Below, piece after piece: positions 40,577 to 46,600 of a stretch of 64,000 nt of DNA; the first letter of the stretch is position 1, and every line of letters starts with the position of its first letter. The notes beneath the pieces are model-generated. The model ran no database searches. It was given only the letters and a program-made list of their open reading frames with translations, and was not told where the DNA came from. The DNA lies in contig NC_134519.1 of the NCBI RefSeq assembly GCF_027942865.1, forward strand, positions 17,245,248 to 17,309,247, read 5' to 3'. Both the position numbers and the translations under genes were made by a program. The DNA is from Odontesthes bonariensis (Eukaryota; Chordata; Actinopteri; Atheriniformes; Atherinopsidae).

Positions 40577-40681
40577 TCAACAAGCAAACTCCTCAAAGTT
40601 GCCTAAAGTCGGGTGACGAGGTAACATGTTCGGCGTGAATCCGAGACTGTCCGAGTGACTCCGGAGGGTGTCACAGGTGCT
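40577..40681 (-). CDS. asic3: asic3 terminal exon, readable in two frames
   Basis: The acceptor has a strong pyrimidine tract (...CCCTCTATTTTGCAG). Entered with two bases left over (53-bp exon included), it encodes 25 full codons ending TCYLVTRL and stops at TAG 40603-40605, the ASIC3-type end with a class I PDZ ligand (VTRL). Entered in phase 0 (53-bp exon skipped), it encodes 34 residues starting [10 protein letters not shown] and ending GNFEEFAC with TGA at 40577-40579. That is the ASIC1/ASIC2-type end (human ASIC2 has STCDT and a terminal EEIAC; ASIC1 ends EDFTC). Both frames look conserved. Confidence 0.85.
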   Translation of the reverse strand, partial: STCDTLRSHSDSLGFTPNMLPRHPTLGNFEEFAC

Positions 40682-43600
40682 CTGCAAAATAGAGGGGAGG
40701 GAAGGAGGGAAGACGAGTTCAACCGGGTTAAGGGAGGAGCGATATAAGGAGTGATGGAGGAAATTGATGAGCCACAGGTAAAACGAGAAACATTGTGAAG
40801 GAGAGTGCAGGAAATAAAATGGGAAAAAATGTGAGATGAAGAGAAAATAAGCAAAACAGAAAAAAAGAATAATGTGATGAATAATAATGTCACACGCAGA
40901 AGGACGGGACATTTAGTTGGGCATGATGAATGGCAGAAACAAATGATGAGGTAATGAATAGATATGGGAGTTTAAAGTTCAGAGGGATTGCATATGTTTC
41001 ACAAAGGAGAGATATTAGGGGATGGCAGGGTGACATGAATGAAAAGAGGGAGAAGAGAAAGAAAAACAATATTTTTAGTCCTATTGTTACACTAACGTGA
41101 AAATCTTTAACTTATGGAATTATGTGGAAGCACCCACATACTGTATGTATGCATGTCCTTCAGTGCAAAAGTGCTTTATCTAGTTTTGATAAGAAAACTG
41201 CAGATATGTGGGCAACACATACTTGTAGTTCCGATAGCAAAAATGGCTATTTCAGCAAACAAAGACCCATTTTGTGCAAACTCACTGCATGCAGATAACA
41301 TCACAAAGTAATGCATCTGGTGATGTTATCTGGCACAAGCCTCAAATGCATAGCCTCTAAATTGACCTCTGAGCTGCAGGGAGACAGATGGTTCTCAAGT
41401 GGTTTCGTGTTTTTGTACAGTTCAGTAAATATCTTTTAACAGGAGCACTGCACTTTCACCTATGGAGGGAAGAAAGTGTCATTATTCAGGGAAAGGAGCA
41501 ACTTTGTATGGTGCAGAGAGGAAAGACCTTTACGCACTTGGAGAATCCAGCCAACTCTCGTCTTCAGCTGAGCTAATAAATACAGACACACATCACAACT
41601 GACCTGTTCTGACATGGCAGCAGATAATAAAATGCACACTGGAGCTCGTCAATCACCCCTGTTTTACTGACTGCCAACCAAATTGTTTGTAACCACTGAG
41701 GAAATGATGTATGAGATGGTCTCAGATACGAATGAAAGAGAGCGACAGCATGGGAGGGAGTATCTATTATCGAAGGGGTGTGCTACCTGGGGACATGATT
41801 AGGCGTGACACCAGGGCTGGTTGGGTTCTCTGGAAACTCCTGGAATAGACATGATGAAAAGAAAGATGGGTGAAGGTGACTGGAATGAAATTAAAACACA
41901 ATGTAAATGCTATAGGTTAAACTTCTGAGGAAATGGGTTTCCACCCAAATTCTAAAATAAATTTGAAAGCGTTTCTTAATGAGGGAAAGCAAAGATCAGT
42001 TACAGTCATCCAGACATGTTTATGATCACTGACGAAAAATGAAAGACAAACTTGAAACACAGAGTCAAATGACAGTTAAATGACTTCCTTGTCAGGTAGT
42101 TTGAGTGCAGATGTGACAATGGAGTAGTTGGAAAATGCTGACAGTGGCGTGCAAATATCTGGGCACCCCTGGTCAACATTTTTCTTACTGTGAAATAGTT
42201 TAGTGAGTAGAGGGTAAACTGTCAAAAAGAGGCATGTAGATTAACAATGCTTCTTGACATTAGAAATAAGTTTAGTGTGTCATTGTTGTTAATGCACACG
42301 AAAACACTGGACCTCTCGGACAATTTACAAGATCTAAGACCACGATTAGTTTGGCAAGGCTATGGCTTGTTCATAATCAGGAGGAAAGCCCAGGAGGTGC
42401 AAACCTCAAAGCGTTCTAAAAGCTCTCATCTCCTCAAACCCTGTGCCAACAATCTGCCGCCTTGGGCTTTTCAAAGCAGCTGCCTAGCACTCTGAAAATT
42501 AGACCAAACAACGCTGATAAAGCAGGATAGCAAGACATTCACTGGCGTCTGTCTTTGTGTAGTTTAAAGAAATTACAGATGGGATAGTAAAGCTCCTTAT
42601 GACCAAAAAAAGGTTGAGAACTGTCTGTAGGATTGTTTAAAAAAAAAAGGGCATTAATGAAAAAAAAAAAGGCAAAATTATTATTAAAAGTTGTAGAAAG
42701 ACATCAAAAGAGCAGTGCATGCAAGATGGGCCAGTGAATCAGAACTAGAAGCCTTTTATAGGAAGAATGAGGGAAAATCCTCCAAACAAGAACTGAGACA
42801 CTCTTAATTGGCTGCTTAGAATTGCGAAGCTGTGTTGATAAGTAGCTTATCAAATGGGGGTGTTATTGATACTGACAGTAGTGGACAGTCAAAGTTTTTT
42901 TCTTTTTGTTTTTTTTTTATATAGAAAATTGCTTAAACTATTAAACAGATGTGTTTAATTCCAGCCCTTTAAAATATTTTAATTTTTTTAAACTTAGCTA
43001 CTGAGAGGAAAAATCAATTTTGATCAGGTAGACAAACGCTTTGCCAGCCACTGTGTGGGATATGACAAAAACAACGTACAGGTGACGATTTCCTGTAAGA
43101 GGGTGACCGTATGACATGAATGGATCATAAAATAAATATCACACTGGGGAAAAAAAGCATGAGTGCAGCCCACTAAATAAATGTTTCAATAAGAACCCAC
43201 TTTAAAGCAGCTGGAAATAATGTCCTTCATAACTATACTGGCTTAAGCTTACTGTACATATACTCTGCAAAGGATGATAAGCAAATTTCCTGCAAACATT
43301 TCCTTCTACAGCCACCGAATTCTGAACCTGAGGAAACCAAGCATGCAAGAGCACCGTCCTCATGCAAACAAAGCCTCATAATAACGTCTCACTGAAAAAT
43401 TGAAGACAACCTATTTTGCATGCCATCTTTTTGCTCTCAAGTGACACACATAACAGTGCATTTCCAACATTCTGCCAAGAAAGCTGGATGCAAACTGGTT
43501 AATACAATAAACTCAAGGACAAAAGAAAATGCCTGCATGTGAAAAAAATCTGCTTCAATGCTTTTCATTATAACAGCACCAGATTAGAGGAAATGTTTTA

Positions 43601-46600
43601 ACTTTGGTCAGTGTATCCAGCCCCTCAGCAAGCTGCACAATGTCATTGCATAAAGAAAGGAATAAAAGCACAAAGATAAAAAAAAAAAAAAACTAACAAA
43701 AAAATGTTACTTTTAAAACTGACATTATCAAGAAACATCAATTTAAAAGGTGACTGAAAATCATAGATTTTCTAAATACTGTGAGATTAGTGATATGTCT
43801 TCAGCCTTAACTAGAAAATAAAGCTCTACATCTTTTGGTAGGGGTTTGATTCTGCAGTACAAGATGAAAAGTTGCTGACTGTTTATATAAAAATGTGCTT
43901 TTCTGCTATGAATTTCTTATTATTTCTGAACTGCCCTGTAAAAAACCTACATAACTTTCAGGGGGAGTGGAGCTCCCTCTGGATGCAAAGTGTTAACCCA
44001 CTGGGCTTGACAAAATTATGGGATTTAGGGGAAATGGCTCCTGTTTCACGAGGAAGATAAACTAGATTGATTGCTTTTATGGTTTTGAAAACAAATTAAT
44101 CTCGAAATAGTCATAAAATCTTCAGACCTCCTAATCTGTTTTCTTTTTATTCCTTTTTTTCTCACGCGAATCTGCTGTGAATATTCTGTCATCATTTTGC
44201 CAAACCATAAGGGAGAAAACCAAAGAGCAAAAACAAAGAGCTTTTACTGCTCTAAGTGAACTGTAACCACATGATAGAAGGTGACATCGAGAAGCTACTG
44301 TTTGTGTGAAAATACTGCAAAGTGTGTTGGTGTGTGGGATTAACTGAGATAAGGTCCACGGCCTATAATAACGAGAGCAGTTTATGAGTCATGAAGACAA
44401 TTTATGTTAAAGCAAGTCAGACCCTTCACTCCTGCATATCCAAGCACCAAAGTTAAAGTACAGTTAGTAGCAAAACATTTGTCAAACCACAATAGACGTG
44501 AAAAGAAAAGATTTCATCATCCGTTTGTACCTACATCGGCAATCCATGTTTGTAACTGTTGTAGATTTTTACCATCACAAAGAATAATCTATAAGGCACG
44601 TCTAAATGTAAACAAAGCGCACTGTACGTATGTAATGCTACATATCTTATGCATTCATGCTACGCAGTAAAAACAATGTGTGTCATATTACATTTTCTCA
44701 AAGGATATATTGTTTCTGCATGAGAAGTAACAACGACATACTATGGGGCTGCTTTGCTCTGTCTCTGGTGCTGTTCAATAAAAGCATTTCAAGTGTGAGC
44801 AGACATTTTGTTGTTGTGCTGTTTCTGAGCCCATCTTGTAACATATCACATTCATTTCAATCAATCAAATGCTTTCTGGGAGGAATTACCAGATTGTCGC
44901 TCTGACAACGCTGAGGTCGTTTCTTGCGCATGAAGTAACCCAGAACCTTATCCTTGAAAACCTAAATGTAAAAACATCAGATAAACATGACTGACAGATG
45001 GAAGAAAGTAATCATCACGGTATTTGACACTCAATATTTTGGGAAATTCGATTATTTACTCATTTGCAGAGTTGATATGATGTATGCTGTGCTTATTTCT
45101 GTCAATAAAGTCCAGCAGCTACCACCTCTAAAGCTCAAATATTAAATGTTATGTATATTTCAAACTTCACAGAAACAAAAGAATAAATCAACCACTTTCA
45201 GTTTTAGAGGAGTTGTTTTGAGTGCTGGAAGTCCTCTGATTTGACTCAGCATGAAAGCCATAAATGCCTTTCCCAAAATGTCTGTTTGTTTTGGATTAAA
45301 TATTATCAGTACAATATATATTTAAAGTCTAGTTGCGATTTATTTGACACGACTTAGAAAGCTATCAGCAAGGAGCAATAAGAAGAGCTAAGCAGTTTAG
45401 CACACATATGACAGTTTGATGTGTACATGTTAAGAGCTGGCTGTAGGTACTGAAAGGAAATATCCATTTTTGTTTGATTCAACGTCCCTAACGTCTCTCT
45501 TTGTTTTTAGCACAACCTCAAGAAGCCTTGTAGATATAGATATCTACAAACTTCACAATCAACATATGTAAGTGTAGATCTGGACATATATGTAGATATG
45601 TAGATATCCATACCAAGTTTGGTGTCAATAACCCTCAATAAAAGAAAAACAGTCATAGGGTCCTTAGAATTCCAATGTATCCTACAAAGCACTCAACAGT
45701 ACCTCAGATTTGAGAATATGGTTCATAAGTTATGTGCATAAATGCACCGCCAGCCTCAACCTAGTGGAAGTGCTTAAATAGCAATTTGGGAGCTTCATCT
45801 ACCTTTCTCTAGGTACTGAAAACGAGAGAGAGCCATTTCCACAGAGTAGCTTTTTTTTGGCTCATGTCCTACATAGACTACACTCTGCCCAGATACCACT
45901 CCGGGGTATTTGTTGTGAAAGTGTATGCTGTGAAGAGCAGTTGCAGAGATATTTTTGACCTTACTGTTTGCACTTTCTCCATAAATTCTTCAGTGTTAAT
46001 GTGTGAAAATGACATTTTACCCTTGCTCCAAATCCATGCTAAAATATAACTAAAAATGATTTTGAATATTGAAGACAAAACGTTACCTCATATAAGTAGT
46101 CAAATATTTCCAGTATTGTCAGAACACTCGCTCCAATAAACAGCCCCATCTGACCTCCAATGTCACCTAGAGACAAAGAGATTAACAGATATGGGCAGGT
46201 ACAGCAATTGAACAATGGTGCGTGAAACCATTCCCAGTGCTGTCACATCTAATTCCGTATATCTCAGAGTTATCTGAGCTGAATTGTCAAAAGTGTCCAT
46301 GCGGGCCAAACTTCTCATCAAACCCAACCCTGCTGCCCTTGCAAGTACATCAGATTATGAAAATGTGTTCAGTCTGTTTCATGAGTTCAAAGACGAACCC
46401 TCAAAGCGTCACGCATGAACACAATGTGAAATGTGCGCCAGGGGCCCGCTGAGTGCTAATGCCAAAGTTATCCTCTTTTTTTCCTGTCACAATGACCATG
46501 GAACTGTGAGAATCTTACCGAGAAGCCCTGCAATTTCATAGGCCTTCTTCTGCTCAATTTTCTCGTAATTCAGAGCTTCAAAGAAGATGTCCAACACCAA

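Follow-up and report, generated by a model that had tools for sequence, protein, structure and literature searches.

The 64,000-nucleotide stretch of Odontesthes bonariensis DNA analysed here (the window; C19:17245248-17309247 of a 945-Mb genome) carries on its minus strand most of an ASIC gene, which we identify below as probable fish asic3. Judging from the DNA and from related proteins, we consider it highly probable that the terminal exon of this gene is dual-coding and that a 53-bp cassette exon upstream switches the channel between an ASIC1/2-type tail and an overprinted class I PDZ ligand. With less assurance, we favour the view that the ASIC3 PDZ ligand arose by overprinting when the frame-shifting exon entered before the split of the bony vertebrates, and that ray-finned fish keep both frames under selection as a scaffold switch. 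If this is true, the TCYLVTQL motif of mammalian ASIC3 is a frame-shifted reading of a tail still used by ASIC1 and ASIC2.

Two frames in the terminal exon

The last exon that the two tails share, 72 bp long, closes in phase 0 at a donor that reads ATCTG followed by gtaatt, the cassette exon is bordered by ag and gt, and a CT-rich tract and ttgcag lead into the terminal exon at 40681. When 44890 is joined straight to 40681, the terminal exon reads as tail A, which ends GNFEEFAC before a stop at 40579-40577. When the cassette is included (joins 44890-41839 and 41787-40681), the same DNA reads as tail B, which ends LVTRL before a stop at 40605-40603; its terminal residues, TRL-stop, satisfy the class I PDZ ligand rule [ST]-X-hydrophobic. 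The register is such that the second position of every B codon coincides with the wobble position of an A codon, and past the B stop the remainder of the A end is single-coding. Both frames are open in the terminal exon, and both tails exist as database proteins. The exon coordinates, the phase 0 end, the 53-bp exon and the two peptides had been given in a first-pass annotation of this DNA, and splice joins and translation confirm them. Since both stops lie in the last exon, neither message would be destroyed by nonsense-mediated decay under the usual rule.

The ends of related proteins were collected with the end of the skip isoform (the A-tail query, for which the best 120 of 1065 matches were used), with a mammalian-type B-tail query (61 matches) and with a query that joined a shark body to the B tail of a fish (63 matches). 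Removing 25 other vertebrates, by name, from the 120 A-query rows and adding four new rows gave 99 ray-finned clusters, one of which (P0001) is labelled unverified by its source. Tail B terminates 60 of these listed clusters and tail A 31, the other 8 ending in different exons; YLVT[RQ]L is the end of every cluster that enters B (60 of 60) and EEFAC that of every one that enters A (31 of 31), the tail ends having also served as a criterion for sorting the clusters. Tail B is present in reedfish, sturgeon, bowfin, eel, tarpon, elephantfish, carp-like fish, salmonids and percomorphs. The first-pass annotation was to be given up if no transcript skipped the cassette and the EEFAC frame was broken in close relatives; we find skip-form database proteins in many fish, and the frame is intact in every listed ray-finned cluster that enters it.

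The conservation of the two frames was set against a recoding null in which one tail was fixed and its codons were redrawn by the usage of the gene itself, silent sites being taken as saturated. With A fixed (200,000 trials), identity to the observed B tail averages 8.8 of 25 residues (standard deviation 2.0, maximum 17), whereas the 60 listed fish B tails retain 21-25. The B frame is open across 25 codons in 76% of these trials, and in 1.5% it stays open for 15 or more codons and closes on a class-I-like PDZ ligand. With B fixed, identity to A averages 7.6 of 25 and the A frame is open in 38% of trials. By these nulls, and on the supposition of saturated silent sites, each frame is conserved beyond what the other enforces, and the earlier claim that two recognisable frames are hard to explain by chance stands.

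The trials with B fixed bear on the proposal that tail A is a relic, the cassette being practically always included, skipping being splicing noise in gene predictions and A staying readable through the constraint on B. More of the listed ray-finned clusters end in B than in A (60 versus 31 of 99), mammals manage without A, and the replacements in A fall where B ends, all of which would suit a relic. However, the constraint on B preserves so little of A in the null that it would not account for fish A tails, which are near-invariant at residues 1-15 and, beyond the overlap with B, at GNF (31/31 listed); moreover, no listed ray-finned cluster that enters A ends other than in EEFAC, the criterion by which these clusters were also sorted. 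We therefore regard a relic as unlikely.

Tails A and B from the same species can be encoded, in the observed register, by a single DNA in all five pairs available, which come from four species (Acipenser ruthenus twice, Labeo, Brachyhypopomus and pink salmon). When every distinct A tail is paired with every distinct B tail, 145 of the 1380 pairings can be so encoded; for pike A and smelt B no common DNA is possible, and none of 2000 shuffled B tails is compatible with the A tail of the window. For three of the four species, salmon excepted, one pair comes from contigs of equal size. The fewest-change DNAs that fit both proteins of four pairs show 16 differences from the window at 11 distinct sites: 10 replace a residue of B and are silent in A (nucleotides 6-48), 6 replace a residue of A and are silent in B (nucleotides 46-76), and none of the 16 replaces residues in both frames. 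From the positions of these frame-specific changes, constraint seems to fall on the first half of A and on the PDZ end of B.

The same changes speak to the converse idea, that A is the real tail and B an accident, its frame kept because silent sites lacked the time to change. The TCYL of frame B does derive from NMLP codons common to asic1, whose other frame also reads TCYLII. Against this, all six inferred A replacements are silent in B, and tail B is common to reedfish, sturgeon, bowfin, teleosts, a frog and mammals; it is also the tail of mammalian ASIC3, for which PDZ partners have been mapped (PMC8555555). We consider an accidental B tail to be very improbable.

Several points weigh against dual coding and against our account of its history. 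Saturation of silent sites between lineages is a supposition of the recoding null. Many database isoforms are predictions, clusters built at 90% identity may hide isoforms, and the tail counts are biased by the choice of query (the best 120 of 1065 matches for A, and the B-tail queries). The pair P0036/P0108 spans two different sturgeon contigs; in the fewest-change DNAs, drawn from four pairs compared with the window, doubly silent changes are invisible, and several of the inferred changes are common to Labeo and Brachyhypopomus. The other frame of the asic1 terminal exon (L015 2172-2261, C3) also reads TCYLII and runs on without a stop, the songbird cluster P0115 has a degenerate A tail, and the separation of asic3 from its paralogues lacks strong tree support. 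Finally, no B tails of sharks, lungfish, reptiles or birds were recovered among the matches of the two B-tail searches. The absence of B from sharks and reptiles is a weak one, because these searches require several shared words and clusters hide isoforms; indeed, a claim that any lineage has a single tail is weak when 90% clusters may hide isoforms and the match lists are query-biased and incomplete.

Origin and history of the two tails

Frame A is most likely ancestral and frame B overprinted, because three paralogues of this genome have a tail homologous to A in their terminal exons, with no tail-B motif in the other frame. These paralogues are asic1 (C3), asic2 (C26) and an asic4-like gene (C17), with the tails NMLPHHPGQGNFEDFTC, LGTLEEIAC and GVFEDFAC, respectively; as read from the sequence, each terminal exon is in phase 0 and follows an ag border. 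The other frame is interrupted in asic2, and in the C17 gene it is open and unlike B. The three exons support the proposal of the first-pass annotation that an ancestral ASIC1/2-type tail was overprinted, and tail A also aligns with chicken ASIC1 through the last residue. A whole-genome search with tail A gave four matches, on C19, C3, C26 and, weakly (E 1.13), on C4; the C4 match is without the end and is left uninterpreted. For the fourth paralogue (C15), no terminal exon was found either in L013, L014, L023, L024 and L028 or by this search.

The 25 other vertebrates comprise sharks and rays, lungfish, a caecilian, two frogs, turtles, squamates and birds, and 24 of those listed end in an A-type tail, the remaining one being the songbird P0115 with its degenerate tail. 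The frog Discoglossus carries tail B. The B-tail query yielded 53 mammalian clusters, of which 50 terminate in B, none in A and 3 in a different sequence, and there is no mammal among the best 120 of the 1065 A-tail-query matches. Since B is common to ray-finned fish, frog and mammals, we infer that the overprinted frame was present by the ancestor of bony vertebrates. In mammals, inclusion of the upstream exon would then have become fixed and tail A lost, and the lineages appear to have settled the two-frame conflict differently.

The first-pass annotation had suggested reading the human last exon in the alternate frame. This was pursued indirectly in a lemur and a cat-family species, in which a third-frame isoform permits the A frame to be deduced: the DNA past the B stop cannot encode GNFEEFAC, and the residual likeness to A (10 identities in 26 positions, where the null averages 6.8; P ~0.10) is not significant. 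We make no claim for a 'ghost' of tail A in mammals.

Identity of the gene and features of the window

The gene in the window is probably fish asic3, named asic1c in databases, the tree leaving its orthology poorly resolved. Its exons match PF00858 in a search of the fish's own genome, as befits an ASIC / DEG-ENaC channel, and the full gene model is an ASIC protein of 552 residues with the 53-bp exon or 543 without it. Exons 1-9 span 55465 to 44890 on the minus strand (Table 1). The full window protein matches the chicken ASIC1 structure 6ave with E 1.6e-212; no solved structure containing the B tail was found at E up to 10. In a tree built from exon 2 to the second membrane span (25 rows, 273 columns), the five rows of ASIC1/2/4 type are placed together on one side, with support of only 47/94.

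The N-terminus is better evidence of identity than the tree. The first exon L003 (C19:17312537-17313013), which lies 3.3 kb outside the window, best matches the ASIC3 N-termini of mammals and frogs, with 49-54% identity, the next best by bits showing 40-44%; in this comparison the paralogue first exon L005 was unparsed and L007 partial. A further first exon, L001 (C19:17386777-17387280), is the best match of turtle and shark N-termini, the window's own first exon is that of the lungfish N-terminus, and shark and ray clusters match L001 or L003. All three first-exon types occur attached to the asic3 body in fish proteins. An association between first exon and tail was considered and set aside, the query bias being too strong for interpretation.

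As for neighbours, an ABC transporter lies at 20650-24429 (plus strand), with ABCB8 as its best half-transporter match and higher scores for ABCB1-type full transporters, and an ATG9 exon, nearer ATG9A than ATG9B, lies at 14396-15145 (minus strand). We take the neighbours of human ASIC3 to be ABCB8 and ATG9B. A coding open reading frame at 1334-2557 (minus strand) belongs to an Ig-repeat protein with titin- and obscurin-like matches.

Table 1. Features of the asic3 gene in the window (positions are those of the window)
Feature	Position	Strand	Remarks
First exon (MIKAPTSES...), one of three alternative first exons	54824..55465	-	
Exon 2	52066..52216	-	
Exon 3a, 128 bp, ASIC1-like version	51414..51541	-	
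Exon 3b, 128 bp, tandem alternative of 3a	49399..49526	-	
Exon 4	47559..47709	-	
Exon 5	47411..47467	-	
Exon 6	46823..46976	-	
Exon 7	46519..46610	-	
Exon 8, second membrane span	46087..46166	-	
Exon 9, last one common to both tails, phase 0 end	44890..44961	-	Near-identical peptide in database proteins
53-bp cassette exon, 17 residues and 2 bases; inclusion leads to frame B	41787..41839	-	Peptide kept in ray-finned B-type proteins
Terminal exon acceptor, pyrimidine-rich	40682..40720	-	
Terminal exon coding part, frame A (cassette skipped)	40577..40681	-	Homologous to terminal exons of asic1 (L015), asic2 (L012) and C17 asic4-like (L010)
Terminal exon overlapping coding part, frame B (cassette included)	40603..40681	-	Homologous to mammalian ASIC3 tails

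Exons 3a and 3b are tandem, phase-compatible versions and probably mutually exclusive. Both types are present among fish proteins, and no second copy of exon 3 was found above the cut in the examined stretches of four paralogues.

In one sturgeon isoform (among P0035, P0036 and P0081) the cassette is read in the third frame and is followed by tail A; in Pseudochaenichthys the third frame of the cassette stops after WCHA, and the cassette exon of the window has TAA at the corresponding place. Carp-like, characin and knifefish relatives have an extra small exon before the terminal exon (SFQDGDDVLHKFR or YADKPSNIEHV types) and end in B or A (clusters P0040, P0041, P0105, P0107, P0114, P0116, P0117, P0119, P0120 and P0175-P0177). 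The exact words of the small exons of other fish (SIVTSPLKQP, DGDDVL and KPSNI types) are absent from introns 9 and 10 of the window. These introns hold RBFOX-type sites (TGCATG, 3 and 1; GCATG, 5 and 1, against 3.0 and 1.1 expected), which we do not count as evidence.

Docking partners and known systems

The choice of partners in fish can be suggested only by analogy with mammalian ASICs. According to PMC8555555, the PDZ motif at the end of ASIC3 is bound by CIPP, NHERF1/2, Lin-7B and PSD-95, TCYLVTQL is required for stomatin binding, PICK1 binds the ends of ASIC1 and ASIC2 and not that of ASIC3, and PSD-95 binds ASIC2a as well as ASIC3. Tail A, which resembles the EDFTC of chicken ASIC1 and the EEIAC of asic2, would be a PICK1-type end. 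We suggest that skipping of the cassette would leave asic3 with the ancestral EEFAC tail and let it dock like ASIC1/2, that inclusion would provide the overprinted LVTRL ligand and let it dock like mammalian ASIC3, and that one splicing choice would in this way exchange the channel's scaffolds and modulators. The first-pass annotation had opposed PICK1 to PSD-95 and Lin-7. The part concerning PICK1 holds for ASIC1 and ASIC2; PSD-95 does not discriminate cleanly, and PICK1 versus CIPP, NHERF1/2, Lin-7B and stomatin makes a better contrast.

Of course, the binding of PSD-95 to both ASIC2a and ASIC3 means that PDZ preferences overlap, and dual coding could be real with a switch that concerns other regulatory contacts (phosphorylation, trafficking or stomatin) and not PDZ partners. 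The need of stomatin for TCYLVTQL is in keeping with such a role, as is the location of the most constant part of the tail, far from the end. However, both frames preserve their outermost residues, which is what PDZ ligands require, although these ends served for sorting too. We see a switch of non-PDZ contacts as a possibility to be taken seriously, if a doubtful one, and prefer the exchange of PDZ partners.

Among the open PMC papers listed by our searches, with subscription papers outside their scope, no title or abstract opening reports dual coding in ASIC3. To our knowledge, few vertebrate exons have been conserved in two frames over so long a time. As the two products are comparable and both docking tails sit on one channel, the cost and benefit of dual coding become directly testable and, if our reading is true, living species let one trace, one frame at a time, how a neuronal ion-channel interaction evolved. 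We presume that zebrafish zASIC1.3 is the product of this asic3 gene; if so, its dual tail may help to explain why zASIC1.3 has been described as an ASIC1 paralogue. That description is given in PMC8388743.

Fish asic3 shares with mammalian ASIC3 a homologous tail B, which ends YLVT[RQ]L in 50 of the 53 mammalian clusters, and differs from it in tail A, in which none of the clusters listed for the B-tail query ends and whose GNFEEFAC cannot be encoded past the B stop in the lemur and the cat-family species. With the C-termini of ASIC1 and ASIC2 (EDFTC and EEIAC, ligands of PICK1), fish tail A aligns to the final residue; unlike fish asic3, the asic1, asic2 and C17 paralogues have no tail-B motif in the other frame. 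A comparable mechanism is splice site C of PMCA, where an inserted exon (154 nucleotides in PMCA1) shifts the C-terminal frame and decides whether the PDZ motif is present (PMC8835232). In PMCA (isoforms a and b) the shifted frame gives a shortened tail without a PDZ motif, whereas in fish asic3 either frame yields a conserved tail with a PDZ-type end, and one of the two tails is common to the paralogues. A single stretch of DNA translated in two frames is likewise described for XL-alpha-s/ALEX (PMC2329644); there the second product is a structurally distinct protein, whereas in fish asic3 the same channel body is spliced to either frame.

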